Shown here: positions 734 to 52,931 of the stretch, in pieces | Layout: each line of letters begins with the position of its first letter | Position numbering within the stretch: position 1 is the first letter of the stretch | Source of the DNA: Natronorubrum tibetense GA33 | GTDB taxonomy: Archaea; Halobacteriota; Halobacteria; Halobacteriales; Natrialbaceae | NCBI RefSeq assembly: GCF_000383975.1 | Contig: NZ_KB913017.1 | Span: 3,324,265 to 3,388,264, forward strand | Length of the DNA: 64,000 nt | Direction of reading: 5' to 3' | Position numbers and translations under genes: made by a program | Notes under the pieces: generated by a model | Database searches by the model: none | What the model was told of the DNA's origin: nothing | The model's input: the letters and a program-made list of their open reading frames with translations, nothing else

Positions 734-3583
734 ATGAGACGAATTGACAAGCTAGCTGATGAGAAGACGTCGACAGTAGATGATTCTGAGCAGTTCTACG
801 ATGAGCGATTAATCGCCTATACTCGTGATGAGTGGCCGTCACGAATCGATAGAGCGGCGCTTGACGTGCTCATGCTGGAAGTTGCGATTGGGTCTGAAGA
901 AACGAGTAATGACATCGGCGGAACGATCGGGAAACTGAATTTCGGCGATGCGACCGGGAAGTACTATGCGAAGGGGCTCACCGAGTTAGCAGACGACCAG
1001 TCCGACCTGCCGGGCCTAGTCAAGCAGTACAAGCGAGAGAACGGGGCTGATTCGGTGGGGGACCTCGCGTTTCGGTTGAATGAGCTTCGGTACGAGTTGG
1101 AGAAACACCTGGATTCGGAGAGTGAGATTCGGAATCTAAATCGGGCTGTTGAGGCGTTAATTGACAAGTTGGCTACGACGTCAATGTCGGAGAACGTGAC
1201 TCGGCAAGCACTGCGGGACCCGGAGTCCATCACGGATGCAATGATGCAGCTCTTTTCTGACCCTGCTATCGCCGAGTATGCGGACGTGTTGACGGAAACG
1301 ATGGATGTGGTCGCTCAGAATGAATCGTTCCTTGAGCGGCTTGACGCGCCGCACATGACGACGCCACTGTGGGAACACCAACGTGACGCGCTCGGCGAGT
1401 GGGTCAACCATGGCTGTAAAGGGTACGTCGATATGGCGACAGCGACGGGAAAGACTGTGCTCGGGTTAGCTGCTGTTGCGCTTCTCTACGGGGAACTCCA
1501 CCCAGATGATACAGCGCAGATATTTACGAGCGCCACTGCAGAGACCGCGCAGCAATCACTTATTGACGAGCTCTCGGTTGATTCAGATGATGAGCATGCT
1601 CGAGTGCTCGTCGTTGCTGGACAGGAACTGATTCTTGAGCAGTGGCAGAGTGAGTTCGACGAGCACCTAAATATTCCACGGGAACGTACGCAGACGAAGG
1701 GGCGGACGATGAAGTTTACGTGGGGGTCGATCGAGTTCCGGACAGCGCCTGACTTGCTTCAGATGGACACGTTAGGCGGGTATGATCTCGTCGTGCTGGA
1801 CGAAGCACATCAGTACTCTCATGGGGGGCGAAGTGGCGGGTGGCAGCCGGTCTTGGAAGAATTAGCACAAAAGAGCGATGCGATCCTCGCTATGTCCGGG
1901 TCGATCGACACTTCGTGGCAAGGCGACTCTGCGGTGAAACGCGTGTTAGAAGAGCACCTACACGAGTGTAAGCGCTTCTCCGTTGACGAAGCCAGAGACG
2001 CTGGTGTTGTCGCTGATTTCGAGTGGGATGTGTATTACGCTCACGCAGCTGATTCAGCGTCCCAAGACGGAGTGATTGAATCGACAACTTCGATCAGGAA
2101 GGTGTACGACCCGGAGCAGCACAAGATTCGCGTTGATAAGCTCGACGGTGATGTGCCGTCGAACACGCCGTCAGGATTTGAAACGCTGACGGATCTGCGT
2201 TCGTTCAGTCAGTCGAAAGAAGGGGCAGACGCTCGAGACGCGTCAGATGCGTTCGATAGACTCGCTACTGACGCGTTCACGCGACGGCCGAAACGGTGGC
2301 AGTTGCATCCACCGATCCAGACGCTAGTCGAGTTGATTGGTCGACACGCGCCTGAACAGCAGTGTGTGGTGCTCGTCCAGAGTTACGAGCAGGCCGATCA
2401 AATCGGTGACGTGCTCGAGGATCGCTACGGCGAGGATCTCGTTCTTGTTCCAGAAAGCGGGGCTTCGGAGCAGTTTGCAGAAATCACTTCGTTTAAGCAG
2501 AAGGACCGTGGTATCATCGTCGGTCCTGCGAACGTTCTCGGGACGGGTGTAGACTTGCCGAACGCAGAGGTGGCGATCAATCTCTCGAAAGGGGGTGTCA
2601 ACGCGTCGCTTATCCAACGTATCGGGCGTGTCTTGCGGAATCCTCACGGTACGAAAGAGGCGATGTTCTACCAGGTAGTGACGTTCCCGTCAGATCGACG
2701 CGGGTTGCTTCCCGGAGAAGACGGGCGTCGGTTGTTGCGACGTGCCAGTGAATTCCGGGCACTCGGCGCTCGCCTCCGGCAACTCCCAGGGTACGATGTT
2801 GCGGACGACCCGACGAGCGAAACGCTCGCAGTGCTCGAACAGCACGGTGTCGGTGGTGTTCTCCGAGATAACCGGTCGATCGACGAGATCGTGGAAGATG
2901 AGGTTGCGCAAGCGTTCCTCCGCGAACTATGCGATCTGATCTCGACGAGTGAAGACGAGAACGCAGAACGGCCCGTTCTTCGAACCTTCAATGGGCATGT
3001 CCTTGACCGGCAGGCTCGCCCGGTGGCTGAAGCAGTGAAACAACATCCCCGCACAGCAGAATCGAATCTGGAACAAAATGGAACCTCGACAGGAAGCAAG
3101 TCTGAATCGACGTCTCAGTCTTCAGGATCTGCAGAAACGTCGGAACCGAGTATGAACACGCACGCTATTGAAATCGAAATTTCACCGGCACTCAATTACC
3201 TAGTCGAACAGGAACTGGAGACAGAATCGTACGCGTCAATCGACGAGTTCACGGACGAAGTCGTCGGCAAGTACGTTTCCTCAGAATTGGATGGTTCAGC
3301 CTCAGTGGTTGCATCTAACGATGATTTCGATGTGACTCTCCCGTCGGATATCGAACGGGTAATCGAGGAGAAGTACATTGGGAACGGAGCAGACTCAGTG
3401 CCGCAATTTATCGAGGAAGCAGTATACGCTTACCTCGATCTGGACACTGAACCGAAGACGGTGGCGGTAACCCTCGGAAGTGGCCTTTACCAGGTTTCCT
3501 CAACTGTTGCCGAGACTTCCGAAGGACATGAAACGGTTGATGAGATCGTCACCGAGGCAATCCGAAGTGAGTTTGTTCGATAA
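734..3583 (+). CDS. SF2 DEAD/DEAH-type helicase with C-terminal RHH-like repeats
   Basis: This 949-residue protein is a superfamily 2 ATP-dependent helicase/translocase. Walker A is ATATGKT (about 235-241), motif II is DEAH (356-359), and motif VI is QRIGRVLRN (from about 628), the pattern of type III restriction/RecG-like helicases. Residues 1-210 are a helical N-terminal region that I do not recognise. After a Ser/Thr-rich linker (about 775-805), residues 807-949 contain three repeats of roughly 45 residues resembling ribbon-helix-helix units (for example IDEFTDEVVGKYV, VPQFIEEAVYAYL, VDEIVTEAIRSEF). A similar tail ends the MBL protein at 26441-28843. No nuclease domain is evident. It is monocistronic with a TATA-like box upstream. 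A role in defence is inferred from the neighbourhood. Confidence 0.8.
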   Translation: MRRIDKLADEKTSTVDDSEQFYDERLIAYTRDEWPSRIDRAALDVLMLEVAIGSEETSNDIGGTIGKLNFGDATGKYYAKGLTELADDQSDLPGLVKQYKRENGADSVGDLAFRLNELRYELEKHLDSESEIRNLNRAVEALIDKLATTSMSENVTRQALRDPESITDAMMQLFSDPAIAEYADVLTETMDVVAQNESFLERLDAPHMTTPLWEHQRDALGEWVNHGCKGYVDMATATGKTVLGLAAVALLYGELHPDDTAQIFTSATAETAQQSLIDELSVDSDDEHARVLVVAGQELILEQWQSEFDEHLNIPRERTQTKGRTMKFTWGSIEFRTAPDLLQMDTLGGYDLVVLDEAHQYSHGGRSGGWQPVLEELAQKSDAILAMSGSIDTSWQGDSAVKRVLEEHLHECKRFSVDEARDAGVVADFEWDVYYAHAADSASQDGVIESTTSIRKVYDPEQHKIRVDKLDGDVPSNTPSGFETLTDLRSFSQSKEGADARDASDAFDRLATDAFTRRPKRWQLHPPIQTLVELIGRHAPEQQCVVLVQSYEQADQIGDVLEDRYGEDLVLVPESGASEQFAEITSFKQKDRGIIVGPANVLGTGVDLPNAEVAINLSKGGVNASLIQRIGRVLRNPHGTKEAMFYQVVTFPSDRRGLLPGEDGRRLLRRASEFRALGARLRQLPGYDVADDPTSETLAVLEQHGVGGVLRDNRSIDEIVEDEVAQAFLRELCDLISTSEDENAERPVLRTFNGHVLDRQARPVAEAVKQHPRTAESNLEQNGTSTGSKSESTSQSSGSAETSEPSMNTHAIEIEISPALNYLVEQELETESYASIDEFTDEVVGKYVSSELDGSASVVASNDDFDVTLPSDIERVIEEKYIGNGADSVPQFIEEAVYAYLDLDTEPKTVAVTLGSGLYQVSSTVAETSEGHETVDEIVTEAIRSEFVR

Positions 3584-5571: not shown

Positions 5572-8500
5572 ATGAAAACCAATATATTACACACAACAGA
5601 CACGTTTCTAGACCGCAAAAATATGGGTCGAACATCCCGTCGTAAAGATTATTTATCTGCCTTCAGCCAGGCTATTGCGTATGCACTCCGAGAAAATGTT
5701 GACGGGGTGATTCACACAGGCAATCTCTTCTGGACAAAAGATCCTTCAGAGGACATTATTGAGGCTAGCAAAAAGCCTCTGAATCGATTGGCAGAAGCAG
5801 AGATTCCGTTTTACCTGGTATACGGAAACAGGGATGAGAAGTTGGCAACTGACCTTCTGGACGAATTTCGAGAGGAAGGATTACTTCGCCCATTGACCTC
5901 AGAGTGGAACACCATCGGTGACGTCTCGGTTTGCGGCATCGACGTAACGACCGATCTGAGATCGACCGATCACCCGGAGATTAAACCACCGCGACCGCGG
6001 ATCGCTTGCGCACATGAGGACGTCAAGGTCTCCACCCTCAACAGGGTCCTGGGTTCAGAAGTTGATGCGTTGCTTCTCGGCGATCAGAAGGGGCCGGTTG
6101 ACCGCACGGAATCTGGCTGCCGAATTCTCTCTCCTGGTAGTCCCGAACGAGTGATAGGACAGTGGACGACTGAAACCGAAGCCGAGACCAGCACATGGAG
6201 GCAGCCGCGCCGCATCAACGTCTACACATTCTCCGAGGAGTCGATCTCCGTTGAGCCAAGTCAGATTGACGCTCGGGATTACGAGGGCATCGAAATTCGG
6301 ACCGATTCACAAACGACCATGCAGGACATCGAGCGAAGACTGGATCAGCTTGATCTGAAAAATAAGGCGGCCTTGCTGATCCTGAGAGGCGAGAACAGCC
6401 CTGCGACCCCGTCACGAGACGCAATCCAGAACGAACTATCGGACCGGGCTGAAATCGCTCGTGTCTACGACCGACGGGACGATGTCGATGCTTCTGATGG
6501 CGCGTCGGGAGAATCCAATGGGACGACCAAGGCACCTCTTGACGCGGATGGTGGAACGAATTTCACTCCTGCCAAGGATACGAGGACAATCAAGTCCGTA
6601 GATATTACGCGCGATGATATCGACAAACTCGAGGTCGCCGACGGGAACTCTCCCGATTCCTCACATCTCGCGGTCAAATTCGAGCGGTTACAGGCGCAGA
6701 TCGAGACTCTCTTCCAGAATGCACCGTGGTTTGAGTCGTTTGATTGGTCCGGCGACCCGGGCTCGCCGTACATCGGACCTCCTGACTCCAACGAATCGGA
6801 CTATCTTTGGCTGGGTGTGTATCACGACTCGTACCGGTCACTCGGCACGCAGGCCAGTGCGCTTCAGTTCGAGTTCGGGATCGATACGAATTCCAATCGC
6901 GGATTCTTCGACCACAGCATAATCTGCGGACTGTATCTCGGGCCCTGGGTAAAGGAGTCGGTCACCGAGGATATCGCCGATCATCTCTGGGCACATCACG
7001 CGAATGTCGCCTCCTTTTTGACCACTCAGTCGGACTACATCCTCGTCACTGGTGACAAAACGTGGCAGACACTCACCCCGGATATCGTCACAAGACGAGC
7101 TGATCCCATTGCCCAGGGATTCGCTCTCACCCTCGACCTTTCGCTAGAAGATCTCTATGCATGCGATGACCTGGTTGAACTCGTGGGGCAGACAATCCTG
7201 GAAGTACTGCCACTGTACTACAAACTCGCCGGAGTGGACGGTCCCGACCAGATCCGAAGTATAGAATCGCTTCGAGAAGACCTCATGGCTCACGAAGACT
7301 CGACTCGTGATGCGGAGGGCAGGTCAACCACACAACCGACCGTAACCGATGCCGATGTCAATGTAGAGGCGACGGTTGAATCGATTGAAGCATACTCATC
7401 GATACTCGATTCTGATGATATCGAAAAGTCTCTTGATAATCTCACTGAACGGGGTGCGTCGCGTGACGAGGCGTTGCGGTACGTCCGACAATACGTCCTC
7501 GACATGGAACGTGGCGACGGCCTCTACGCGATTAACGGACTGGGTCCGGTTGCCGGCTACGTGCTTACTCAGGCCGGAATCACGACTCCCGAGGAACTGG
7601 CGTCGGCCTCGCTCGAGGAGGTGAAGGCGATCGACGGACTGGTCGAGGACCACGCGCAGAGAATCCTGAAAAATACTCGCAACGGGGAGCTGACACCGGC
7701 GGCTGTGGAGGCGAACAATGGCTCATCAGCTGCCACAGCCGACACTGCGTCCGAATCGGACGTCACCGTAGCTTCCGAGGCGACCGGTGGCGAGCCTCGA
7801 AGGGTGTGCAAGTCACGCGTCCATTCCGCTGATGCATCTCGGTCGCATACAACAGACGATCTGCCAGTCGCCACCTACAACGGGCAAGAGGTCCCGGCAA
7901 ACCAGTTGTCCGAATGCTACGAAGCAATCCGCAGCGTTCGGAAGGTCCTTTCGACAGTCATGCAACTTCCGGGAACCACCATCGATCCCGATGATTTGAC
8001 CGATCCCTGCGTTCAATATTACGTGCTACTCGAAGCATGCATCAGCGGCCATTCAAATCTTGATTTATCGGGATATGGCCAACAGCATCGGGATCGACTC
8101 TCGTTCAGAATCGTTGATTATCGCCATGCGTATGGCGATGGCGACTGGGTGACCAAATATCACACCATCGACGTTACATCGTATCGAGAAGAGACGCAAG
8201 ACTGGCTCGAGGAAAAGACATATCTCGAGGACACACAGCGATTCGTTCGGCCGATACCGCCGGGGATCGAGCAGCCGCTCCCGGAGAGCGTCGGCTCAGT
8301 TGACGACCTCCGCTACGCGCTCGAGGTATTAAGCGAGTTCCCCGCTTATCCTCCCCTACCGATGGAGAACGGAGCCTCCGACCGTACAATACCGGTCGAA
8401 ACGCTCTATACATCATTGTTCAGCCAAGTGGATGGTGCGCAGTTGATCGATGTTGAGACGCTTTCCAACCTAGGTTCGGCAAGTCCTGAACCGATCACGG

Positions 8501-9201
8501 GACCGGTAGCTGACGCGACGCCAACGTCGAAGGCCGACGCTGAATCGGTACTGCTCGATTACGGCAAACTCACGCACCTGTATAAACAGGTCGAACCGCC
8601 GACTCAGTCGCCCGTTCGACGTCCGCTGCCCGTCTTCGGCCTCGACTGGTACCGTTCGGCATCTGGTTCATTCGACGCCCTGCGGGATCTCGCGAAGCAC
8701 GGTAAGGACGACCCGGTTTCGGTCTTTCGGCCGCGGCTGCGAGACATGGTGCATCGTCGATTCCTGCGTGATCGCTGGGAGTACGATTACATTACGGTTG
8801 TCCCGGGCCACGAGGCCGGAAGTTTGAGCTCGCAACTCGTTGAACTAGCGCAGGACTCCGTCCTCGAAACATCGACGATCTACTCACCGCTGCTGGAACG
8901 AACGGAAACGACGGAACGGCAGCGCGAGAAATCACGCGAGGAACGCAAAAAGGTCGCACGAAATCCGGAGGCAACATTGCGGGCCCGCGCCTCACTCGAT
9001 GGAGAAAGCGTGATTCTATTCGACGATATCTGCACCTCCGGGAACTCACTACTGGCGGGAGCGCACCTGCTGCGTGAAGCCGGGGCCGGCCGCGTGGTCG
9101 GTCTGACCCTCGGGTTTACACCCGGCGAAGACGAGATGCGGACGAAAGAAATCAAGAAGCCCGATGCCTACGCATCGGATATCATCGCAGGGCTAGAATA
9201 A
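5572..9201 (+). CDS. Degenerate Mre11-like phosphoesterase-HhH-phosphoribosyltransferase fusion
   Basis: This 1209-residue multidomain protein has an N-terminal region (1-260) with the layout of Mre11/SbcD metallophosphoesterases. The metal-binding motifs are altered: DTF instead of DxH, GNLF instead of GDxF, GNRD instead of GNH(D/E), and no GHxH. It is therefore probably an inactive, structural or DNA-binding fold. Residues 340-570 form an unassigned domain with some resemblance to McrB N-terminal (DUF3578-like) regions. Residues 640-710 carry a helix-hairpin-helix (INGLGPVAGYVLTQAGI). The C-terminus is a ComF-like phosphoribosyltransferase with a textbook PRPP loop, VILFDDICTSGNS (about 1148-1160). 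The stop overlaps the ATG of the DprA-like gene by one base (TAATG), indicating translational coupling. The combined function is unknown. Confidence 0.75.
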   Translation: MKTNILHTTDTFLDRKNMGRTSRRKDYLSAFSQAIAYALRENVDGVIHTGNLFWTKDPSEDIIEASKKPLNRLAEAEIPFYLVYGNRDEKLATDLLDEFREEGLLRPLTSEWNTIGDVSVCGIDVTTDLRSTDHPEIKPPRPRIACAHEDVKVSTLNRVLGSEVDALLLGDQKGPVDRTESGCRILSPGSPERVIGQWTTETEAETSTWRQPRRINVYTFSEESISVEPSQIDARDYEGIEIRTDSQTTMQDIERRLDQLDLKNKAALLILRGENSPATPSRDAIQNELSDRAEIARVYDRRDDVDASDGASGESNGTTKAPLDADGGTNFTPAKDTRTIKSVDITRDDIDKLEVADGNSPDSSHLAVKFERLQAQIETLFQNAPWFESFDWSGDPGSPYIGPPDSNESDYLWLGVYHDSYRSLGTQASALQFEFGIDTNSNRGFFDHSIICGLYLGPWVKESVTEDIADHLWAHHANVASFLTTQSDYILVTGDKTWQTLTPDIVTRRADPIAQGFALTLDLSLEDLYACDDLVELVGQTILEVLPLYYKLAGVDGPDQIRSIESLREDLMAHEDSTRDAEGRSTTQPTVTDADVNVEATVESIEAYSSILDSDDIEKSLDNLTERGASRDEALRYVRQYVLDMERGDGLYAINGLGPVAGYVLTQAGITTPEELASASLEEVKAIDGLVEDHAQRILKNTRNGELTPAAVEANNGSSAATADTASESDVTVASEATGGEPRRVCKSRVHSADASRSHTTDDLPVATYNGQEVPANQLSECYEAIRSVRKVLSTVMQLPGTTIDPDDLTDPCVQYYVLLEACISGHSNLDLSGYGQQHRDRLSFRIVDYRHAYGDGDWVTKYHTIDVTSYREETQDWLEEKTYLEDTQRFVRPIPPGIEQPLPESVGSVDDLRYALEVLSEFPAYPPLPMENGASDRTIPVETLYTSLFSQVDGAQLIDVETLSNLGSASPEPITGPVADATPTSKADAESVLLDYGKLTHLYKQVEPPTQSPVRRPLPVFGLDWYRSASGSFDALRDLAKHGKDDPVSVFRPRLRDMVHRRFLRDRWEYDYITVVPGHEAGSLSSQLVELAQDSVLETSTIYSPLLERTETTERQREKSREERKKVARNPEATLRARASLDGESVILFDDICTSGNSLLAGAHLLREAGAGRVVGLTLGFTPGEDEMRTKEIKKPDAYASDIIAGLE

Positions 9202-10166
9202 TGGAAATAGACAATCTCGCCTCTCTAGTCGCATTAACGGATGTCGACGGAGTCGGTGATAAGCGCGCCCTCAAATTGTATCGAGCGGTCGAGACACCGG
9301 AGGAACTCTGGTCGAGTTCGTTAACCGCATTTGACGACTTTCACTATGTGGATGAAGAAACCCACACGCAGCTACAGAATTTGCCGGAGACCATCGACAA
9401 CTACCGCGAGCGGTTCGATCGCTACAGGAACGATGGAATCAAGATCATCGGTATCGACGACGACCGGTACCCAGCATCATTACGGCGCAATCATGCACCG
9501 CTTGTCCTCTATGCGAAGGGAAATGTTGATCTGTTAAACGGGCCAGCAGTGAGCGTTTCCGGATCGCGCGAGACCAACGAAGCCGGGCAACACTGGACCC
9601 GTGAGATCGCGTGTGAGCTGGCCGCTGAAGGGTATACGATTGTCAGTGGCGGTGCTCGAGGCGCAGATACGGCGGCTCACGAAGGAGCCCTCGATGCGAC
9701 TGGCGAAACGATTGTTGTCCTCGGGACGGGTGTAGATATCCCGTATCCAGAGGAGAACAAGGCTCTGTTTTCCGATATCGTCGATACGGGTGGCCTTCTA
9801 CTCTCACACCAGCGACCGAATGCGGGACCGACTCGTCATTCATTCCTCAACCGCAACCCGACGATTTCTGCGTTGAGCCCTGGGATAATCGTCGTCGCTA
9901 CCGATGGGACGGGCGGAACGATGGCCCAGTATGACATCGCTGTCGAACAGAATCGCCGAATATTCGTTCCCAAAGCTGATCGCGACATACGACCCGATAA
10001 TGGCCTCAGAGAGTTGCGAACTGCCAAGGCGACGACGGTTGTCTCCTCGACTGCGTCGGTCGAAGCCAAACTTGTAGAAGCAGTTCCCGGTGACGAGGCA
10101 AAACCCGGTGATACGGACGGTTTCGAGGAACAGGCAAACCAAACGTGTCTGGATGACTGGGGGTGA
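9201..10166 (+). CDS. dprA: DprA/Smf-like Rossmann (SLOG) protein
   Basis: This 321-residue protein has an N-terminal helix-hairpin-helix (VDGVGDKRALKLYRAV, about 12-27), then a DprA-type Rossmann fold: VSGSRETNEAG, IVSGGARGADTAAHEGAL (about 149-166) and a VVLGTGVDIPYPEENK block. DprA in bacteria binds single-stranded DNA and loads RecA. In archaea, and in conflict systems, related SLOG folds may instead bind nucleotides. The C-terminal winged helix of bacterial DprA is not evident. It is coupled to the upstream Mre11-like/PRTase gene by a one-base overlap, so the pair probably acts together. DprA plus a ComF-like PRTase recalls the bacterial competence set, but no other competence gene is here. 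Confidence 0.8.
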   Translation: MEIDNLASLVALTDVDGVGDKRALKLYRAVETPEELWSSSLTAFDDFHYVDEETHTQLQNLPETIDNYRERFDRYRNDGIKIIGIDDDRYPASLRRNHAPLVLYAKGNVDLLNGPAVSVSGSRETNEAGQHWTREIACELAAEGYTIVSGGARGADTAAHEGALDATGETIVVLGTGVDIPYPEENKALFSDIVDTGGLLLSHQRPNAGPTRHSFLNRNPTISALSPGIIVVATDGTGGTMAQYDIAVEQNRRIFVPKADRDIRPDNGLRELRTAKATTVVSSTASVEAKLVEAVPGDEAKPGDTDGFEEQANQTCLDDWG

Positions 10167-13070: not shown

Positions 13071-15161
13071 TCAGGAGATTCGACCAAGTGCCCACGTTGC
13101 CTGTTCCTGAACCTGTTCATCGGGGTCGTCTTTGAGCAGCCGTAACTGGTCAACTGGAACCGGCGCATCAGCGTTACCAATCAATGTACACGTGTTCGCC
13201 CGCACGGTCGAATTTGAATCGCTGAGAGCTGCGACCAATTGTTCGTGTTCATCACGGACTGCTTTGGGGTTCGCTTCGCCGGCACGAAGTAACGTAATTG
13301 AGGTGTGCACTCTAGTTTCGTCGTCGTCAGCAGTAAGAGACTCTGCCAGCTCCGGTGCAAGTTCGATAACGTCTTCGGGGTTCGACTGTGCAATATCGGC
13401 CAAGAGGCCAGCAGCGTTCGCACGAACCAACGCATCGTCGTTGGTAAGCAATTCACCGAGTGAATCAACGATATCACCGGCTGCGTCGGGGTAGGCCTGT
13501 GCGATTTCCCCGAGCGTCGAGAGCGCGTTCGTACGTAGATTTTCATCGGGCTCGTCGATACTATTGATTAGGATCTCGACTGCCGGGAGGAGTTCCTCGG
13601 GATATGCTTCGGCGACGTTCGAGAACGTATATAGCAGCCAGCGGCGAGTCTCCAAGGTCGCTGAATCAGCTGCCGACGCCATCGCAGGCACCGCATCTAG
13701 CACCCGTTTTGGAGCTACCTCAGCCACAATTCCGAAGCACTTCGCTATTTCCGCTGCTTGCTCCCGATCGGTAAGGAGATCTAATCGAGCCAGGAGCATA
13801 GTCTCGAAATCGTCGGCAACTGTCTCACGGACGTCTTCTCGCTCCCCGAAGACCATAGCGATGAATTCTAGTGCTGTGGCGGCCTCGACTTGGCCATTCT
13901 GAGATGCTTCGAGAACAACCTCAACATCTCCGAGCGGGATTTGCTCTGCGTTCTCATCGGCGATCGCCACTAACTCCGAAATTGCGGAATCCCAGACCGG
14001 GTCGGGTAGCTGTTCGAAAGAAATCGGGTGAAGTTCACGCAGAGCCGGGAGACGGATCGTGATTGGGGGGTTTCCGACAATCGGTTGGAATCGAAACACC
14101 GGGGGCCCATGGAGCGGTTTTGCCGATGGCCGTGTAATCTCGTTGTGGTAGCCGACCACCCGCTGTTCTTCGTTATCGTCCAAGTACGCAATTTCGAATA
14201 GGTACCCGACATCCAGGATGGTTTCGACTGTGGTTTCGGATTCAAAGCCTCCCGTCATCGCTTCTGTGGATAGCCACTTCCCGGATTCGTGGGTCGGTTC
14301 CTGGATATCTGGAAGCGAACGCAGCCCGGGAGCAACGACATCTTCCCACCATCTTTGCCGGAATTCGTATTCGAAACCCTTTGCTCTGGCCTGAACACCG
14401 TTACTCCCAAGCGGATGATTTTTCTCGGGTTCCAACGCTTCCACGATCTCGTCACGGGACACACCGCCGTGTTCGAGGATGTACCGGCGTGCAGCGGCAA
14501 TAGCGAGCACACAGTCCTGACGCGGTGCTTTCATTGAAAAATCGACGTTCTCCAGAGCGAGCAGATCGGCATCGACCTCAAGCCGGCGCCTTCGCAAGTC
14601 CAGACTGAGTTGGTCACTCAGGACGTCCTGGTCGAATCTATCTTCGTACTGTGAGAGTGTTATCTGGCGGCTATCTCCAGTCCGGAACTCGGTGTTTCCT
14701 AATCGAATGCCGTGAGGGATTGCTTCGATCGGGAGTTCTTCCCTCCAGGCGGTAATCATCGCTTCTTGGATCGTGATGGAGTCCCCGTCGTCGGAAACCA
14801 GTTCTTTGTCTGGATCAAGACCGCCGCTCGCCGGGTCATAGAGGAACGCGTCAGCCCCGACGACATCATAGATCCCAAGCTCCCTTACAAGTCCGTTCCA
14901 GCGTCCCTCGATCGTCTCCTCGTCTTGGTCGTTCAGCAGCGCGATCAGATCTTGAATTAAGTCCGAGGTGAACTCCTTATTGAGCAGTCCCGCTTCTTCC
15001 AGCGCCTCGATATCGGGACTGGCAACCAGTTTCCGAACGCGATTTGTTATCTGCAGGGCCCGTTCTTGGCCTACTTCGTACTCCCGGTGCATCTTTGTTG
15101 CCATCGCACCTGCCCAATCACTCGCCCCCATAGAGAGGGCAAGCAGCCCGAGAACTATCAT
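13071..15161 (-). CDS. Membrane-anchored HEAT-repeat protein
   Basis: This 696-residue protein starts with a short hydrophobic segment (MIVLGLLALSMGASDWAGAM) that may be a membrane anchor or a truncated start. The central region (about 200-400) is unassigned and includes a winged-helix-like stretch around ARRYILEHGGVSRDEIVEAL. The C-terminal 250 residues are tandem HEAT/armadillo-type repeats, with NALSTLGEIAQAYPDAA and AAGLLADIAQSNPEDV as examples. The repeats closely match those of the HAD/HEAT protein at 19216-20928 (shared YPEELLPA, GLLADIAQ and LLRAGEANP blocks), so the two share a scaffold attached to different N-terminal domains. Such proteins usually mediate protein contacts. The role is unknown. 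Confidence 0.7.
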   Translation of the reverse strand: MIVLGLLALSMGASDWAGAMATKMHREYEVGQERALQITNRVRKLVASPDIEALEEAGLLNKEFTSDLIQDLIALLNDQDEETIEGRWNGLVRELGIYDVVGADAFLYDPASGGLDPDKELVSDDGDSITIQEAMITAWREELPIEAIPHGIRLGNTEFRTGDSRQITLSQYEDRFDQDVLSDQLSLDLRRRRLEVDADLLALENVDFSMKAPRQDCVLAIAAARRYILEHGGVSRDEIVEALEPEKNHPLGSNGVQARAKGFEYEFRQRWWEDVVAPGLRSLPDIQEPTHESGKWLSTEAMTGGFESETTVETILDVGYLFEIAYLDDNEEQRVVGYHNEITRPSAKPLHGPPVFRFQPIVGNPPITIRLPALRELHPISFEQLPDPVWDSAISELVAIADENAEQIPLGDVEVVLEASQNGQVEAATALEFIAMVFGEREDVRETVADDFETMLLARLDLLTDREQAAEIAKCFGIVAEVAPKRVLDAVPAMASAADSATLETRRWLLYTFSNVAEAYPEELLPAVEILINSIDEPDENLRTNALSTLGEIAQAYPDAAGDIVDSLGELLTNDDALVRANAAGLLADIAQSNPEDVIELAPELAESLTADDDETRVHTSITLLRAGEANPKAVRDEHEQLVAALSDSNSTVRANTCTLIGNADAPVPVDQLRLLKDDPDEQVQEQATWALGRIS

Positions 15162-17210: not shown

Positions 17211-18017
17211 TTAGTTTTTAATTTCCAGATCATCTCGTGATTTGGATTGTTCTCTCGCTTTCTTTTTCCATTCGAATAATGGTAGAACAGATCCGACATC
17301 AGACTCGTTACCACTCGTCATAATCCATTCAGAACGTAATATTCTCTTTCTTAACTTAGTACCACAGGAGTTGCATTTGAAGAACTTTATAAATAAAATC
17401 GAGTTGAGTGTTACTGCAGCACTCTTTCCGCAGGTTGGGCAGGAACCGAAGATATCAGTTGCTTGTGTCCGACTATGCATCCTACCTCGAATTCTGTATC
17501 GTTTGAACTCTTGAATAGTTCCTGCAGTTGTCGGCTCTATTTTTTCAGTATTTTCGACACGAACTAATTCGAGATTTTGCCGTGCACCATCCTGTGTGAT
17601 TCTCTCATCGTACATTGCTCCACATGAAGAGCACTGGAGAACTTTAGCTTCCTCTTTGGCAGTTATTTGTTCCCATCGAACTGTGAGATTTGCTTCAGTA
17701 CAGTTGGGGCATCCCCCATAGAACTCGTTCAGTTCCTCATCAGCTGATTTATACATTCGACTCCAGAACCCTTTCTGAGGCCGGTGAGTCGTTGCTCCCA
17801 TCCAACTGTGCCGTTTACCGTGACAGTCCTTGCAAAGCGTTGTGAGATTCTTGAGTTTGTGACTCCCTCCCTTGCTTTTCGGGACAATATGATGAGCATG
17901 AAGCTCACTATCACCCCTGGAACCGCCTTTTTCCCCGCAGTCTTGACACGTGTAGTTGTCCCTTTGATATATCTTCTTTCGCCGTTGGTTCCAGTCACTG
18001 GGATAACCAGCACCCAT
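17211..18017 (-). CDS. HNH endonuclease with zinc ribbons
   Basis: This 268-residue nuclease has an N-terminal HNH domain (about 5-70): CQDC knuckle (C24, C27), HAHHIVPKSKGG (His at 40, 42 and 43), NLTTLCKDCHGKRH. The HH pair and the two Cys pairs give a complete beta-beta-alpha-metal site. Two further CxxC zinc ribbons follow (CPNC with CSSC, and CPTC with CNSC), likely for DNA binding. The start overlaps the stop of the upstream gene by one base, and the EVE gene follows. In context it is the cutting component of a small restriction-like operon. An IS-borne homing HNH is less likely given the operon structure. Confidence 0.85.
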   Translation of the reverse strand: MGAGYPSDWNQRRKKIYQRDNYTCQDCGEKGGSRGDSELHAHHIVPKSKGGSHKLKNLTTLCKDCHGKRHSWMGATTHRPQKGFWSRMYKSADEELNEFYGGCPNCTEANLTVRWEQITAKEEAKVLQCSSCGAMYDERITQDGARQNLELVRVENTEKIEPTTAGTIQEFKRYRIRGRMHSRTQATDIFGSCPTCGKSAAVTLNSILFIKFFKCNSCGTKLRKRILRSEWIMTSGNESDVGSVLPLFEWKKKAREQSKSRDDLEIKN

Positions 18018-19215: not shown

Positions 19216-20928
19216 ATGTTCGTTCTCGCATTCGATCGTGACTGGACAGTCGATGTGAACCCGCCGCCAGACCGATCGGCCGTCCCACTTGATTGGGTAA
19301 CGTTCTGGGCGCACGACATTGAACACGAAGTGTGGGCGATTGGAAACCAGCAACTCGTCTACGAGGCTGGTATCCCGGGTGTTATCGAAGCTGTTGACCG
19401 GTATTACGGTGATCTCGACATCATCGGTGAACAAGATGAGTCCGGTGAGTACGATTTTTGGCCGTCACGGGAACGACGACTCGAACTACTGGCAGAACTT
19501 TTCCCCGACGCACGCAAACACATCGTTATCGGTGATAGCGACTGCAGCCACGTCGACGGGTGGGAGCAGTACACCGCCTGGGAATTCCGTGAGGCAGTCA
19601 CGACAGGTTCGCTGAGCGCGTTTTTCCACCCGCCATCTATTGACTCCGACACAATCAGCGATACGAGTTCAGATCACGTCGAAACGATCCGCCAGCAACT
19701 CCGAACCGCCAGCGAAGCCCAAATCACCGTCAGCGGCAGTGAAGAAGACGCGTTCCGAACCGCGTCGTGGAAAAAACCGCGTCCAACCGCACTTCCGGTC
19801 GACGCACCAGCAACACTCGACTTTACTACAACCGCTGGCGACACACGGCGCATCCAACTTCCAGACATCACTGATGTCACTGTCCTCGAGGAGCAACCTG
19901 AGTCCGAGCGCGAACACGAAGACAACTCCAAACCCACAGCCGACATCGAACTGCCGGACACCGGACTGATGCTGCGACGCGTCGAGCGGGCCACGTACCT
20001 GACAACCGCTCAACGAGTCGAATTCACGATCGATGTCCTCAAAACTGCCACGAAACTCTCCGCTCTCCCGAAAAAACTGATGGGCGAGTTCAACCGCGCT
20101 ATCGACGATGTCCCCGACGGCACGTCTCCCGTGGATAAGGCATCGTCCTACGCCGCACGACACCCCTCACACCTGCAAAACCACGTCAGCGATCTGAGCC
20201 GCCTTACTGGTGTCACCGATACTGGGGCGAGCAGACACGCAACCTGGTGCCTGATGGAACTCGCCGAGAAAACACCAGAACCTGTGATCGACGCCGTCCC
20301 AGCACTCACGACCGCACTCACAACCGACGACGAACCCACACGTACGTACGCAACGTATGCACTCACCTGCATCTCGAACCAATACCCGGAAGAACTCTTA
20401 CCTGCGCTCGATACGCTGATCAACCAGCTTGACAACGAGAACCAAACGATTCGAACCAACACGCACTCTGCCGTCGGTCATATCGTCAACGGCTACCCTG
20501 ATACAGCGGTCGCACATACCGACTCGATCGCAACACTCCTCGAAAGCGACACAAAGCGAGTTCGAAACAACGCCACGGGATTACTCGCAGATATCGCCCA
20601 AGAACATCCAGATCGTATCATTGAGTACGCTGACGACCTCGCAGCACGACTCACCGATCCAAACATCCAGGCCCGAATCAACGCCTCGATCGCACTTCTC
20701 CGAGCTGGAGAAGCGAATCCAGAGGCCGTCCGGAACCACCACCGGCAACTCGAAAAAGCACTCGACGATTCCAGCCCTGAAATGCGAGCAAACGCCTGTG
20801 TACTCGTTACGAATACTGACGCTCCAGTTTCAATAGAGATACTCCAAGAGCTTCGTGCAAACGATCCTGACGAGACTGTGAGAGATCACGCGGCGATGGC
20901 AATCAGAAGACGAGACAACAGTCCATAA
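19216..20928 (+). CDS. HAD-like/HEAT-repeat fusion protein
   Basis: This is a 570-residue protein. The N-terminal 140 residues resemble a HAD hydrolase: motif I-like LAFDRDWTVDVN (Asp7, Asp9), then PLDWVTFWAHDIEHEVWAIG and a later IVIGDSDCSH that may supply the acidic motif. After a linker, residues about 330-570 form HEAT-type repeats nearly matching those of the protein at 13071-15161. HAD enzymes are phosphatases or nucleotide hydrolases; the substrate here is unknown. An AT-rich stretch about 100 bases upstream could hold a promoter. Codon use differs slightly from neighbours (many GAA/AAA), consistent with exchange between replicons. Confidence 0.7.
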   Translation: MFVLAFDRDWTVDVNPPPDRSAVPLDWVTFWAHDIEHEVWAIGNQQLVYEAGIPGVIEAVDRYYGDLDIIGEQDESGEYDFWPSRERRLELLAELFPDARKHIVIGDSDCSHVDGWEQYTAWEFREAVTTGSLSAFFHPPSIDSDTISDTSSDHVETIRQQLRTASEAQITVSGSEEDAFRTASWKKPRPTALPVDAPATLDFTTTAGDTRRIQLPDITDVTVLEEQPESEREHEDNSKPTADIELPDTGLMLRRVERATYLTTAQRVEFTIDVLKTATKLSALPKKLMGEFNRAIDDVPDGTSPVDKASSYAARHPSHLQNHVSDLSRLTGVTDTGASRHATWCLMELAEKTPEPVIDAVPALTTALTTDDEPTRTYATYALTCISNQYPEELLPALDTLINQLDNENQTIRTNTHSAVGHIVNGYPDTAVAHTDSIATLLESDTKRVRNNATGLLADIAQEHPDRIIEYADDLAARLTDPNIQARINASIALLRAGEANPEAVRNHHRQLEKALDDSSPEMRANACVLVTNTDAPVSIEILQELRANDPDETVRDHAAMAIRRRDNSP

Positions 20929-23346: not shown

Positions 23347-24516
23347 GTGTCACAATCTCCATTCTCCATCGATCCGGATACCGCGATACCGATACTAACG
23401 AGGTTACAACAAGGGGTTCCTCCTGAACCGGAGAGTATCCAGTACATCCGTGTTGGACGAAAAGACGAAGAACGCCGTCTCTGCGATAAGCCCATAGAGG
23501 GGCTACAGAGTCTTAAACGGGGCAGCGGTCAAATCTACTTCGTTCTCGGTGACTTCGGGTACGGGAAGTCGTTTTTCATCAACCTTCTTTCACAGCGGGC
23601 TACTGACATGAATATGGTGCGGTCCCGTTTCGACCTTCAGGATATCCAAGATATCGCTGATAAGACAGATTTGTATACTAATATCGTTCGAAATATACGG
23701 TATCCAGATGAGCGAGGAGAGGGACTGGTACCGCTTTTCCGGAGATTCTGTGAAGAAGTAGACCGTAGTGATTTTGACCGTATTGCGACCGAGCGCGGAT
23801 TCTATGGGCACCCGATCTATAATATGCTCTCGAATTTGCTTGAGGCATGGGAGAAAGGACAACTGCGCGTTGAAAAAGATGAGGTGACACTTGATCAAAG
23901 TCAGGTACTCACTGCTGTTACTAGCTATCTTCAAGGTGAGGATGTTCCTTTAGAGGGACTTCACGCTATCGGCAAGGTTGGGTTTGATCATATTTCGAAG
24001 GAAGACGAGTACGAATACCTCCAGCATATTCGCTCTCTGGTATTAGAACTGGGATATGATGGGGTAGTAGTGCTGTTAGACGAAGCCGCAGAGCAACTTG
24101 AATGGTCCCCTGATTCTGGGACGACCCAACGGTTGATCGATCTTTACAATAAGTGCTTTCAGCAAGGCAAATTTGATCATATGATGTTCGTCTTTGTTGG
24201 TAACCAGGATAAGTGGGACACGCTAATTGATGAGACAGGACATCAAGCTCTCTCTGACCGATATCGAGCGAAAAAGGTAGTTCTCGGAGAACTTACTGAA
24301 GAGGACTATGTGGACCTAGTTGAACGTGTCGCCCATCTTGTTACGGTCGCCCATGACCGTTCGGTCTCGCTGACGGAGACGGAAGCACGCGAAATTGTAA
24401 CTAATGCTGCAAGTGAGTACGGGGGCGTTAGCGAACTTAGCCCCCGCCGATTACTCCTTTTCCCAAGGCGAAAAGAGAACGATACAACTCTTGTTGATCT
24501 AATCAGTGACAAGTAG
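23347..24516 (+). CDS. BrxD-like (DUF2791) ATPase
   Basis: This 389-residue P-loop ATPase has GTG as the start, 9 bases after the previous stop. The N-terminus has the family's pattern ILTRLQQGVPPEPESIQYIR, then VGRKDEERRL. Walker A is GDFGYGKSFF (about 70-79) and Walker B is VVVLLDEAAEQLEW (about 239-252). The C-terminal segment GGVSELSPRRLLLF fits the lid/winged region. These are hallmarks of the BREX system ATP-binding (BrxC/BrxD) family, STAND/AAA-like ATPases associated with defence operons. No PglZ, PglX or BrxL is present, so this is not a BREX locus. It probably forms a complex with the zinc-ribbon ATPase downstream. Confidence 0.75.
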   Translation: MSQSPFSIDPDTAIPILTRLQQGVPPEPESIQYIRVGRKDEERRLCDKPIEGLQSLKRGSGQIYFVLGDFGYGKSFFINLLSQRATDMNMVRSRFDLQDIQDIADKTDLYTNIVRNIRYPDERGEGLVPLFRRFCEEVDRSDFDRIATERGFYGHPIYNMLSNLLEAWEKGQLRVEKDEVTLDQSQVLTAVTSYLQGEDVPLEGLHAIGKVGFDHISKEDEYEYLQHIRSLVLELGYDGVVVLLDEAAEQLEWSPDSGTTQRLIDLYNKCFQQGKFDHMMFVFVGNQDKWDTLIDETGHQALSDRYRAKKVVLGELTEEDYVDLVERVAHLVTVAHDRSVSLTETEAREIVTNAASEYGGVSELSPRRLLLFPRRKENDTTLVDLISDK

Positions 24517-29233: not shown

Positions 29234-30949
29234 CTACTCTGCTGCTCCCTCTACCTGCAGCAACTGACCCTCCTCCAACCTCAGAAGACTCGCAGACTTC
29301 TTCACCAGATAATCCTTGAAGTCTCTGACATTCTCAGGTGTCCAATCATCATACTCCTCGACCACACGACGAGTCAAATCAAAATTCGTAGCCGCACGGT
29401 CTTCAGCCACCGATGCTAAGGTACTGTCACTCCCCATGTAGTGAGCCGCCTTCGTTGGGAAGGGCTTCTGCTGAACCGTCTCGTGAACCTCCTGTTCCAA
29501 GGGGATCAAATTACCTAGACTATGTCTCAACTTAGCGGCCTCTTCAGCAGAGAAGTTCTCCCTCCAATACTGCTCGTTCTCCATTGCAGTAGTGAATTTC
29601 TTGGGTAGAATGTGCTCACGGTGCAGTTCCTGGCCAGGCTCAATCTCACTGGTCTTCATATCTGGAGTGAACCGGTACTCGATAGCGAGAAGAAGCGGTC
29701 GATGCCAGCTAGCTTCGTAAACGTCAGAGTCCAGATTGTTCTGCACCTTCTGAGCGATGTTTTTGCTGCTACGATCATCCTCGATGTACTCCCAGACCTC
29801 ATCGAGACTTCCACCGTCCTTAATCAGGCTCAGAAGGTCGTAAGACGGGTTCTTGATTTTTGCGCTGGTGTGGCCTCCAACCCAATAGGAGTAGTACATA
29901 GCGACCAGGGCATCCACCAACCCCTCGTAATCCTCAAACCCTTGCTTCTTTGCTGTGGTGAGCAAGGTCTTCCAGTACTGAGTGTGCTTTAGATTAGAGA
30001 GCATGTACATCTCCCGCGACTGATCATTTTCTACACTCAGGAACTCCTCCGCGTACCTATCGATGTCCCTGGCCAATTCCACGACAGATGTCTCGCCGTG
30101 CAGCGTTGAGTCAAACTCATCCTTCAACTCCTCGTAGATTGACGATTCTGCCCGTGTTTCCTGAATATAGAGTCGGTAGCTGGATAGCAGGTTGTCTAAC
30201 CGACTGTAGTTGTCCTCGAACTTGCTGGAGAGTTTCTTCCAGGACTCCGTCACCGTCTTTCGCTGTTCATCGTTCGAGGTGAGGCTGAGAAGGTAGCTCT
30301 TGGTCAGGTCGGAGACAGTGAGGTCCTTTCCTCGCGTATTCGCCGTCTGAAATAGCCGGATAGCATACGAAAGATCCGATGTCTCAATCTGTATGATCTC
30401 AACCTCTAGTTCGACAAAGTCGTAGAAGTTCCTCAACTCCTCTGGATCCTCAAACTTGTCCTCCAAGGCGTTCTTGGTGTACTTTGCTGCGTCCGTGTAG
30501 TTGTTGTCTTCACTCAGGTCGACACCGGATAGGATCGTGGTCTCAAACTCGTCCTGATGCTTCTCACCTGTCCGTAGCCTGTACGTTGAGTCGTCACCTG
30601 AAGAGTCCTCCAACCGGCGTTCTATTGTACCCATTTGAGACGCCAACTCTTCACTGAAAAAGTCACGAAGGACAGCATAGAAGATTATCAACGTAGTGAT
30701 ACGCTGCTGACCGTCTAAGATATCCAGTCTTTTCTCACCGTTGTCAACCAGAATCACCGTCCCCAAAAAGTACGAATCATCACCATTCTTCTCCGCGTTC
30801 CAGGCCTCGAAAAGGTCATCCCAGAGCTGGTCGATATGTCTTTTCTCCCAGCTGTACGGTCGCTGGTACTCCGGAATCTTGTACAGGGTCTTCCTGCCCT
30901 CGAAAAGATCACAAATATCCGCTGGTTCTGCGTCGAACTGGCTAGCCAT
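29234..30949 (-). CDS. gmrSD: GmrSD-type DUF262-DUF1524 restriction protein
   Basis: This is about 571 residues from ATG 30949 (MASQFDAEPADICDLFEG); an in-frame ATG 8 codons upstream is possible. The N-terminal DUF262 domain is ParB-like, with YKIPEYQRPYSWE (about 22-35), DILDGQQRITTL (about 76-87) and FQTANTRGKDLTVSDL. The C-terminal DUF1524 is HNH-like, with the HREHILPKK motif followed by LRHSLGNLIPLE. GmrSD enzymes cut phage DNA with glucosylated hydroxymethylcytosine or other modified bases. Single-chain S-D fusions are common. The gene is on the opposite strand to its neighbours and is bordered by transposase scars at 28.9 and 31.0-31.6 kb, so it seems to have been inserted into the plus-strand cluster. 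Confidence 0.85.
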   Translation of the reverse strand: MASQFDAEPADICDLFEGRKTLYKIPEYQRPYSWEKRHIDQLWDDLFEAWNAEKNGDDSYFLGTVILVDNGEKRLDILDGQQRITTLIIFYAVLRDFFSEELASQMGTIERRLEDSSGDDSTYRLRTGEKHQDEFETTILSGVDLSEDNNYTDAAKYTKNALEDKFEDPEELRNFYDFVELEVEIIQIETSDLSYAIRLFQTANTRGKDLTVSDLTKSYLLSLTSNDEQRKTVTESWKKLSSKFEDNYSRLDNLLSSYRLYIQETRAESSIYEELKDEFDSTLHGETSVVELARDIDRYAEEFLSVENDQSREMYMLSNLKHTQYWKTLLTTAKKQGFEDYEGLVDALVAMYYSYWVGGHTSAKIKNPSYDLLSLIKDGGSLDEVWEYIEDDRSSKNIAQKVQNNLDSDVYEASWHRPLLLAIEYRFTPDMKTSEIEPGQELHREHILPKKFTTAMENEQYWRENFSAEEAAKLRHSLGNLIPLEQEVHETVQQKPFPTKAAHYMGSDSTLASVAEDRAATNFDLTRRVVEEYDDWTPENVRDFKDYLVKKSASLLRLEEGQLLQVEGAAE

Positions 30950-31030
30950 GAGAAACAGTCGAAGTAACTTCAAATAAAATCTATGCTATAGGTGTCATTT
31001 GGCCTCTCGGAAATAATTTCGAACCTTCTG

Positions 31031-42600: not shown

Positions 42601-43157
42601 ACGCGTCCCGGAGCCATGAAGAAGTCAAGGCGAACCGGTTCTACATCCCGGAGGACTGGCGGATGCTGGCGACGATAAACACACTGGACAAAACTTCGCT
42701 GTACGAGATGAGTTACGCGTTTATGCGGCGCTGGGCGTTTGTCCCCGTTGGAATCCCTAATCTTCCTGACCGTGAGGATGGCGATGATTCTGAACTCGAA
42801 TCACTCGTCGCGGACTATGTTGCAGTCTGGGCGGCAAACGGTGAAGTGCCGGAAGCAGACCATCACTACGAGACAGTCGGGCGTATCTGGCGAGCGGTTA
42901 ACGAACAGAGAGCTATCGGGCCAGCTATCGTGGAGGACATTTATGAACACGTTGCAGCTGCTTCCTCAATGGAGACGGCGGATTACGTTTCGCCGATTAT
43001 CATGTACGTGTTCCCGCAATTGGAGGGTCTGCGGCGAAACGAGTTAGAGCAGCTGATCGGGGCGCTTGAAGTGATTGTTGACGATGAAACTGGTGAGTTG
43101 TGGACAGTCGCACGTGATTTCTTCCAGGTTGATCTGCAGCCGGGCGGGGGAGAGTGA
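39624..43157 (+). CDS. mcrB: McrB-family GTPase with multiple EVE/PUA-like domains
   Basis: This is a 1177-residue protein. The C-terminal AAA+ domain is McrB type: Walker A GPPGTGKT (878-885), Walker B WLVIDELNRAD (about 952-962), and ATINTLDKTSLYEMSYAFMR (from about 1016), the McrB form of the NTxD signature. Upstream lie PUA/EVE-like modules: one at about 95-235 (VWHFGFNDGWWELF, IGDILVIKDG, GVVTGEY), one at about 543-680 (AFYWVNQTHTEELEKEYLRS, PGDVVFHYT) and one at about 690-800 (KRYFWVNAANTGWHEEGG, GDEGLVYRV, IGRVRV). Between them is a helical region (about 300-520). EVE modules read modified bases. Standard McrB has one reader domain, so this is an expanded version. The nuclease gene follows after 6 bases. 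It is a GTP-driven, modification-dependent restriction system. Confidence 0.85.
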   Translation: MTNGPTSPSVELDDGTVITRTDVIEGFKNTKDEPPYESHSKRVYVDGKGKGVKDVFRNLPGISDDANLHTHRIEDLFETLGFETGTDDGSTDLSITGDIGQVWHFGFNDGWWELFKENKCVSIGFSGANTDLSELTDVDAIVSNSGLEDDSNHPRNPAEQLRKFAHDVQIGDILVIKDGQRFEDGDSWAGGAEIPAIGVVTGEYQYSQAEDWYNSLPAEIAATENHHHRRVDWVIDLESSEEGRFQPNALIQQWTIDDIDYENIKRQLLDARGFEAEFEELEQRSAALVERRSEQIDSRRFDDVIEFGGIDALIDRFVDVWRAGGYEEDAESPVGWETWKWDYQKHLQEEFLSNHEITNLSPDDVEELTEVLDEKVSLNTRVPVYMLGGGANGGIAWRDFKEISREDPGEAAKTLSFFFDTTEDIEERLEAFREFYSEIDTGPGSLLALAACLLMFVHPAQYIHYKWTQMREFFAEFSEYTVSQGFDSDQYRELNQACERLRERLEGRVEEPSMLHVQSMIWSWGDLMSETDVKAEEFREAAPDDVAFYWVNQTHTEELEKEYLRSQDTKWQRDLTVLEPGDVVFHYTDQALQAVSTVVNKPYRDEYEGGQQYFVELSTEWFDTPVPRDTVTEVLQKPEIRQEQSRYPIDKNGGVIQAYLCHLTPAAGAFLLDVADASIPDRGERRDDGEKRYFWVNAANTGWHEEGGEAFYALESSDGTERRNQEAYEQARSGDEGLVYRVSTAKQVIGRVRVVEGLHEEVPEGRDETAEGITFQWEESLDGAQWCDVMSDPELTDSKLVTSDNSYYITELDKREYNRILELGEITRFEKYEEELTVPASEITVEQGNLHFQRREWERLQSRIEKALMNGNHVLLFGPPGTGKTKLARQICEATVGAKNYELVTASADWSTFDTVGGYQTTTQNTLEFEPGVVLDRFQRNEDGMPANEWLVIDELNRADIDKAFGSMFSALTGESVTLPFDGSDGSPIQILDASRSHEEVKANRFYIPEDWRMLATINTLDKTSLYEMSYAFMRRWAFVPVGIPNLPDREDGDDSELESLVADYVAVWAANGEVPEADHHYETVGRIWRAVNEQRAIGPAIVEDIYEHVAAASSMETADYVSPIIMYVFPQLEGLRRNELEQLIGALEVIVDDETGELWTVARDFFQVDLQPGGGE

Positions 43158-47818: not shown

Positions 47819-48073
47819 AGGGGTGATTATTCTAGGCTAGTACAAATATTCGTGCATCCTGATGTCCCTATCTCGACCCTATTAGAAACTCTCTGTTCGC
47901 CGTGGTATGTGTGGGAGATTTATGACCTCGTCGTTGTCCGGTGCTATCTTCGCAGCGTCCCCAAACCGTTTGTAGAGAGGTTATTGTATTGGAATTGCCC
48001 TAAAGCTCACTTTCCGTGTTTTAGATGTGCCTAGTGGAAACCTATTTATTATGGGGGTTCGTTGGCCGGTGTA
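47819..48073. promoter_or_regulatory. Divergent promoter region of ATPase and Argonaute genes
   Basis: On the plus strand, TATTTATTAT (48043-48052) lies 22-31 bases before ATG 48074, supporting that codon as the Argonaute start on a leaderless transcript. On the minus strand an AT-rich ATATTTGTA sits about 30 bases before ATG 47818. No gene is visible between. Confidence 0.5.
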
Positions 48074-50743: not shown

Positions 50744-50805
50744 CCCTGCACCGTAACAGCCCGCGCAACCACCCACGTACCCGTCAACACACCGGTGACC
50801 CTCGC

Positions 50806-52926: not shown

Positions 52927-52931
52927 TAGAC

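Follow-up and report, generated by a model that had tools for sequence, protein, structure and literature searches.

A candidate DprA/phosphoribosyltransferase defense pair of haloarchaea with an apparently inactive Mre11-like domain in its putative sensor array

Introduction

The genome of the haloarchaeon Natronorubrum tibetense GA33 (4.93 Mb) carries, in a stretch of 64,000 nucleotides that was analyzed as a whole and is called the window here (G000:C1:3324265-3388264; gene and domain coordinates are positions in it), two overlapping genes that we regard as a probable toxin-antitoxin defense pair of the DprA/phosphoribosyltransferase kind, the kind represented by ShosTA, PsyrTA and RqlHI. 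The first gene (5572..9201, + strand) encodes a protein that is not short (1,209 amino acids, aa) and in which, according to Pfam, NCBIfam and PADLOC matches, a phosphoribosyltransferase (PRTase) of the ComF/ShosT type is preceded by four regions: an Mre11-like domain that has lost most of its metal ligands (pseudo-Mre11), a domain A, a helix-hairpin-helix (HhH) region and a domain B. The second gene (9201..10166, + strand) encodes a DprA-like protein of 321 aa, the putative antitoxin (PF02481, ShosA). In the explanation that we prefer, the ComF-like PRTase would be a toxin restrained by the DprA-like antitoxin, an array of DNA-reading modules would replace the RecQ helicase, and the pair would act by abortive infection; toxicity, the antitoxin role, the chemistry and an anti-phage effect would belong to the window pair by analogy with its bacterial relatives. 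Toxin-antitoxin systems of this kind are already known, and the new part is the sensor array, which consists of pseudo-Mre11, the DUF1054-like domain A, HhH, B and, in relatives, pentapeptide repeats.

The phosphoribosyltransferase and its DprA-like partner

The C-terminal region of the toxin (aa 1004-1209; 8581..9198, +) is recognized by the PADLOC models ShosT (9e-15) and PsyrT (5e-9), by NCBIfam comF (1e-7) and by Pfam Pribosyltran (27.4 bits, with a cut-off of 26.3). It keeps the phosphoribosyl pyrophosphate (PRPP) loop that a first-pass annotation of this DNA had pointed out (VILFDDICTSGN, ~9010..9048, +), and the DD of this loop is present in 17 of 17 aligned PRTases. The adjoining DprA-like protein matches ShosA (6e-57) and PsyrA (1e-40) in PADLOC, PF02481 in Pfam (2e-56) and, in the PDB, entry 9vzo, the "DprA-like antitoxin protein ShosA" (2.8e-26). 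On sequence, the pair matches the DprA-antitoxin/PRTase-toxin type (ShosTA, PsyrTA) and is no orphan. Pfam detects in the 1,209-aa protein the families Metallophos at aa 4-115 (5e-7), HHH_5 at 653-700 (4e-6) and Pribosyltran at 1127-1175 (2e-6), and no helicase family was found in it with Pfam and NCBIfam at E 1 or better. The stop codon of the toxin gene (TAA, 9199-9201) and the start codon of dprA (ATG, 9201-9203) have base 9201 in common. This one-base overlap had been described in the first-pass annotation, as had the Mre11-like N terminus, the HhH region, the C-terminal PRTase and the DprA partner, and Pfam and NCBIfam matches bear out these last four; domains A (aa ~338-600) and B (aa ~770-960) are additions to that description. 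An assembly artifact or a decaying gene is ruled out by two further copies of 86% identity (G387, G330) and by ratios of nonsynonymous to synonymous substitution (omega) well below 1.

In a survey set of 391 Halobacteria genomes, to which all genome counts given here refer, full-size dprA (E < 1e-28; the other matches listed were weak fragments of about 20-32 bits) is represented by 18 genes in 15 genomes, and a PRTase gene adjoins it in 18 of 18 cases. Six of these partners are short ShosT-like PRTases (246-328 aa); two, encoded by one genome (G139), are HhH-RecQ-like helicase-PRTase proteins of 930 aa, the copy scanned scoring 874 bits as PsyrT; and the remaining ten belong to the group of the window toxin, two of them being known from a contig-cut PRTase end alone. 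The PADLOC assignment of the proteins from G387, G330a, G180 and G200:C57 and of the second G139 copy rests on similarity to a scanned PRTase; the G180 toxin, of which each of two contigs holds a part, was read as one gene, and contig ends truncate the G200 copies. The PRTase/DprA alignment and tree leave out 34 N-terminal residues of one DprA with an upstream start, as well as the second G139 copy. The two archaeal PsyrTA copies of G139, each with its DprA, lie 36 kb apart (L090 4423-8283 and L091 2893-6753). Relatives of the DprA partner are also encoded on bacterial plasmids, where the adjoining gene is for a RecQ-family helicase in E. coli, for a short PRTase in Sinorhizobium and for a protein annotated as HAD hydrolase in Priestia.

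The first-pass annotation had suggested a DNA-sensing system for nucleotide signaling, or for depletion of NAD or nucleotides, rather than competence, with DprA as a partner in signaling. The restriction of full-size dprA to 15 of 391 genomes, always beside a PRTase, agrees with the judgment on competence and speaks strongly against a competence or housekeeping DprA (other competence genes were not sought). A defense-type pair around a nucleotide-handling enzyme likewise accords with the PADLOC names, the surrounding island and the sporadic occurrence, but nothing was found for a signaling nucleotide or NAD. Nucleotide depletion is the nearer part of that suggestion, as a review ascribes to the relative ShosT both PRTase and pyrophosphatase activity, with disturbed purine pools as the effect and T7 Gp0.7 as a trigger (PMC12593503). 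Since the pair falls into an established class of systems, in which the PRTase is the toxin and DprA the antitoxin, DprA is probably an antitoxin here and not a signaling partner.

The pseudo-Mre11 domain

The N-terminal domain of the toxin (aa 1-310; 5572..6501, +) comprises a phosphoesterase and a capping region, and its derivation from Mre11 is clear: NCBIfam Mre11_Halo (NF041030) matches aa 3-306, capping region included, at 118 bits (the equivalog cut-off is 550), and its PDB profile matches are Mre11/SbcD proteins, with Pfu Mre11 at 2e-14. The domain and seven relatives were aligned with 21 liganded rows that represent 20 distinct haloarchaeal Mre11 proteins, one locus being entered twice; an earlier motif filter had dropped 12 of the 21 loci tried (among them L027, which is not an Mre11 locus), and the table was redone with the 21 liganded rows. 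The complete set of metal ligands (DxH, GD, GNH, H, GDxH) is found in none of the eight pseudo-Mre11 domains as compared to all 20 liganded proteins, which have DTH, GD, GNH, the motif IV histidine and GDxH throughout. The window protein has D-T-F for DTH, GNLF for GDLF, GNRD for GNH[DE] and GDQK for GDxH. Among the eight, motif I reads D/N/Q/K-x-F/H/Y/S/T, motif II is GN, GD or GH, the histidine of GNH is replaced by R or K and the last histidine of GDxH is gone; the aspartate of motif II is retained in three and the histidine of motif I in one (L032). The motif IV histidine is missing by alignment, but this position is uncertain because a histidine lies nearby ("CAHED"/"CAHEE") in the window protein and its two 86%-identical relatives.

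The loss of most metal ligands, which the first-pass annotation had read from DTF, GNLF and GNRD, is thus upheld by the ligand table, and homologues with a full set, which would have refuted the first-pass interpretation, do not occur in the pseudo-Mre11 clade (0 of 8). The lack of GHxH that had also been listed is real and yet not diagnostic, because all 20 distinct haloarchaeal Mre11 proteins aligned have GDxH; the part that has been lost is its last histidine. The eight domains form a clade of their own in the Mre11 tree (support 100/100), separate from the 20 liganded proteins, and their placement within it is unsure because several branches are long. Judged by the alignment, ligand loss is a property of the whole clade. 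A second haloarchaeal Mre11-like clade, of 388-415 aa, keeps all the ligands and is distinct from canonical Mre11 (98/97; L012, L013, L016, L018, L022, L023, L025, L026).

The dead domain is maintained by purifying selection, since omega, computed between the window protein and its two 86%-identical relatives, is 0.16-0.29 there, as compared to 0.06-0.32 in the other domains and 0.36-1.27 in the linkers. Pseudo-Mre11 also carries less negative charge than its liganded counterparts (net -5 to -29 vs -29 to -40), and the loop that follows motif I has a net charge of +1 to +4 vs -2 to +2. In a halophile, lower acidity and a basic loop fit a nucleic-acid-binding surface and are what continued DNA binding by the dead domain would predict, although this evidence is indirect. 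The catalytic site of the nuclease is apparently lost and the domain apparently used as a sensor. Similarity to liganded Mre11 stops near aa 302-326, so the C-terminal Rad50-binding region is not apparent, and Rad50 was not among the large neighboring open reading frames (ORFs) scanned with Pfam. The liganded Mre11 of the host, 28% identical to pseudo-Mre11, is encoded elsewhere in the genome, beside Rad50 (899-aa frame).

Domain A, the HhH region and domain B

Domain A (aa 338-600; 6583..7371, +) is predicted to have a DUF1054/YktB-like fold. Its AlphaFold2 (AF2) model, made from a shallow alignment of 8 rows with an overall predicted local distance difference test (pLDDT) score of 47 and values mostly of 50-87 by ten-residue block in A, aligns over 194 residues with the DUF1054 protein YktB of B. 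subtilis (PDB 2a8e; Z 15.3, root-mean-square deviation 3.4, VIA-align) and with 3mqz at Z 12.7. Foldseek with the same model returned nothing at E <= 0.001, and the match rests on the VIA-align Z. At the sequence level A has no Pfam match at E 1, no PDB match at E 5 and 8-11% identity to the DUF1054 structures. Residues 340-570, for which the first-pass annotation had proposed a structure prediction, are ruled out as part of the PRTase, being the separate domain A. This domain was found in 8 of 391 genomes, in six of them with proteins of the HhH-B-PRTase group and in two on McrB-like AAA+ proteins (G245, beside McrC, and G309); of the three places in which it lies outside the PRTase family, two were checked for context by Pfam and G309:C1 is known from the ORF listing alone.

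The HhH region (aa 605-705; 7384..7686, +) contains the HHH_5 match, and in a structure comparison of the predicted model the RadA/Rad51 N-lobe resembles it at Z about 7. Domain B (aa 770-960; 7879..8451, +) is more widespread, occurring in 48 of 391 genomes and in other protein contexts. In nine further loci examined, B belongs to proteins of 477-3,090 aa, four of which were run through PADLOC. It identified three of them as PbeA-like helicases; the remaining one (477 aa; L138 4392-5825), which received no PADLOC name, combines B with an Mre11-like phosphoesterase whose ligand motifs are present and lies beside a PbeA-like helicase. Frames of ~479 aa similar to this last protein occur in other genomes. 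Large proteins with B, mostly of about 1,000 aa but in one case of 3,090 aa, were seen at L133, L134, L136, L137, L139 and L141; the three PbeA-like helicases are among them, and some adjoin tRNA-guanine-transglycosylase-like or DpdA-like genes, which suggests defense linked to DNA modification. A further protein (L036 1065-5351, G284; 1,428 aa) has HhH repeats, a C2H2 finger, B and a Bles03-like region, with no PRTase found.

Distribution and exchange of modules

The HhH-B-PRTase family is present in 8 of 391 genomes, including two of the nine in the set that belong to the genus of the window, and the fusion of pseudo-Mre11 to PRTase in five. Six of the eight pseudo-Mre11 domains are fused to PRTase (G000, the window genome, G387, G330 twice, G180 and G149) and two are not (G082, G141). 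The arrays that precede the PRTase vary. The order pseudo-Mre11-A-HhH-B is found in the window, G387, G330a and G180, pentapeptide-pseudo-Mre11-HhH-B in G330b and B-pentapeptide-pseudo-Mre11-HhH-B in G149, and two arrays lack pseudo-Mre11, namely A-HhH-B (G082) and pentapeptide-HhH-B (G174). G330b, with pseudo-Mre11, and G174, without it, form a supported clade in the DprA tree (98/100), from which it follows that the pseudo-Mre11 module was gained or lost within this clade. Three genomes share a further neighbor, a metallophosphoesterase of 302-306 aa, which adjoins the dprA pair in two of them and a PRTase-less pseudo-Mre11 in the other (L047 11879-12787, L045 3099-4019, L042 4929-5849).

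Haloprofundus marisrubri has a pair of A-HhH-B-PRTase and dprA, followed by a convergent operon (L046 12001-18400) for a pseudo-Mre11-HhH protein (733 aa), a McrB-like AAA_5 protein (873 aa) and McrC (PF10117, 176 bits). Since A also occurs on McrB-like proteins, pseudo-Mre11-HhH before McrB-McrC and B in PbeA-like helicases, the array is a set of modules that are found in restriction-type systems as well. No viral contig with A1, A4 or A2 and no match in phages was found, and plasmids gave, for the C-terminal half of the toxin, B-domain relatives only. The phylogenetic profile that the first-pass annotation had recommended places the pair outside core metabolism, as a sporadic constituent of a defense island.

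The genomic neighborhood

The pair sits in a defense island, with defense-like genes on both sides of it. A PbeA-like helicase (734-3583, PADLOC) lies upstream, and downstream there are a SngB/BrxD-like gene (23347-24516), a HEC-06/Orf5-like gene (29234-30973), a SngC/BrxH/DruE-like helicase (31639-34179), a McrB-like AAA+ protein (39624-43157), a prokaryotic Argonaute (pAgo; 48062-50743, PADLOC 1,090 bits) and a Cas4-like protein (54986-55894). The guanine-plus-cytosine (GC) content is 0.558 for the pair and 0.541 for the window, lower than at the Mre11-Rad50 and Smc loci of this genome (about 0.63). The pAgo gene is followed, in one direction, by helicase-like, unknown and Cas4-like genes (48062-55894), and two genes for HEAT-repeat proteins in opposite directions (13071-15161, 19216-20928) flank one for an HNH/zinc-ribbon protein (17211-18017).

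Proposed mode of action and alternatives

In an uninfected cell, DprA would hold the PRTase off. Replication of a virus would yield DNA ends, branches or abnormal DNA-protein states that the array or DprA would bind; the restraint would then be lifted, and the PRTase would consume PRPP or perturb nucleotides until growth stops. DNA binding by pseudo-Mre11 and by A, and the trigger, we infer. The simplest assumption is that DNA ends are what the dead Mre11 reads, because the Mre11 scaffold has been kept while basic residues were gained and catalytic residues lost. The bacterial literature provides the background for such a scheme. The RqlHI study states that toxicity requires the PRTase domain, that the PRTase alone is insufficient, and that RqlI, which is DprA-like, holds the toxin in check by binding it (PMC4670107). 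A pair of DprA and PRTase is reported to protect E. coli from T7 and lambda (PMC9122126), and bacterial ShosTA to respond to a phage SSB (single-stranded DNA-binding protein; PMC10732053).

Several observations weigh against the toxin-antitoxin explanation with its DNA-reading array. The HhH-B-PRTase toxins of G082 and G174 do without pseudo-Mre11, so this domain is dispensable for toxins of this kind. It may be DprA by itself that senses the trigger, as is suggested by the short ShosT-like haloarchaeal toxins that have no such array. At the sequence level the PRTase resembles ShosT only modestly, AF2 gave no confident model of B and the PRTase (pLDDT about 30, and 34.8 in a second run), and the literature yielded no experiment on the window pair or its archaeal relatives.

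The main rival, which we hold to be rather unlikely, is that pseudo-Mre11 is a guard or decoy that mimics or contacts the Mre11-Rad50 complex of the host, the PRTase being released when a viral inhibitor strikes that complex or the complex is lost. Some other defense systems are known to guard host repair complexes, and a guard could be a domain that is clearly Mre11-derived down to its capping region, dead and yet conserved, in a host that has a separate liganded Mre11 beside Rad50. Its similarity to Mre11 ends before any apparent Rad50-binding region, however, its identity to the host protein is 28% only, and its basic loop points to DNA and not to protein. Between the reading of DNA ends and the guarding of Mre11-Rad50, sequence cannot decide.

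An idea of the same low standing as the guard is targeted DNA damage, as has been proposed for RqlHI: the array would bring the PRTase to DNA ends, nucleotides in DNA would be modified directly and DprA would recruit repair. Each recognizable module ahead of the PRTase has a DNA-associated type or context, as this idea would have it, but we know of no PRTase shown to act on DNA. The RqlH paper does put forward genomic nucleotides as the target that the PRTase alters (PMC4670107). The review cited above states that DNA duplications result from ShosT and that ShosA is a DNA binder, although it ascribes the effect of ShosT to altered nucleotide pools (PMC12593503).

It is quite improbable that the pair chiefly stabilizes a mobile island by addiction and has no role in sensing viruses. 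Its sporadic distribution, the low GC content of pair and window relative to core loci and the overlap of the two genes would agree with this, but addiction has no need of a 1,000-aa array of exchangeable DNA-reading modules under purifying selection, and the neighbors are defense-like. Least credible of all is a housekeeping role in recombination or competence, in which DprA would load recombinase and its fusion partner serve as a repair scaffold, for although the DprA, HhH and Mre11 folds all come from recombination biology, full-size dprA is as rare and as strictly tied to a PRTase as described above and the host has its liganded Mre11, with Rad50, at another locus.

Beyond the toxin-antitoxin explanation itself, we offer more tentatively the view, which we think possible but doubtful, that haloarchaea possess plug-in DNA-reading cassettes, including a dead Mre11 as a reporter of DNA ends or of the condition of the repair machinery, and that different genomes have these wired either to McrBC restriction or to a suicide toxin, the PRTase, which DprA keeps in check. 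If true, DNA breaks would be detected by a dead repair nuclease turned immune receptor, which would give archaea a counterpart of break-sensing immunity and DprA/PRTase systems a new way to detect viruses. As to how toxins of this kind sense infection, a sensor built on a catalysis-free repair nuclease gives a concrete hypothesis, with either DNA ends or the status of Mre11-Rad50 as the signal. The kind would also be extended to archaea, and PRTase toxins would be linked to McrBC through common modules.

Comparison with known systems

No description of an Mre11-PRTase fusion was recognized in the open-access papers searched, as judged by titles and the openings of abstracts, and the closest systems resemble the window pair in part. 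With ShosTA it has in common a PRTase core with the DD of the PRPP loop and an adjoining DprA-like gene, but the ShosT model has 237 positions and the haloarchaeal ShosT-like proteins 246-328 aa, whereas ~1,000 aa of other modules come first in the window toxin. PsyrTA and RqlHI are alike in that a large DNA-acting N terminus precedes the PRTase of the toxin and a DprA-like gene shares its operon; the window toxin differs in having no RecQ-like helicase, which is present in the G139 relative, and dead Mre11, a DUF1054-like domain and B in its stead. Haloarchaeal Mre11 (NF041030) is matched by aa 3-306 with the capping region, and it is set apart from the pseudo-Mre11 clade by the incomplete ligand sets of all eight members of the latter; the window protein, moreover, has no adjoining Rad50 and no apparent Rad50-binding C terminus. 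To DUF1054 (YktB, 2a8e) the likeness of A is at the level of the predicted fold, in contrast to the low identity and the lack of a match between the sequences. McrBC type IV restriction, finally, is approached through A on McrB-like AAA+ proteins and through the pseudo-Mre11-HhH gene that precedes McrB-McrC in Haloprofundus, but the effector of the window system is a PRTase with DprA and not an AAA+ motor with a nuclease.

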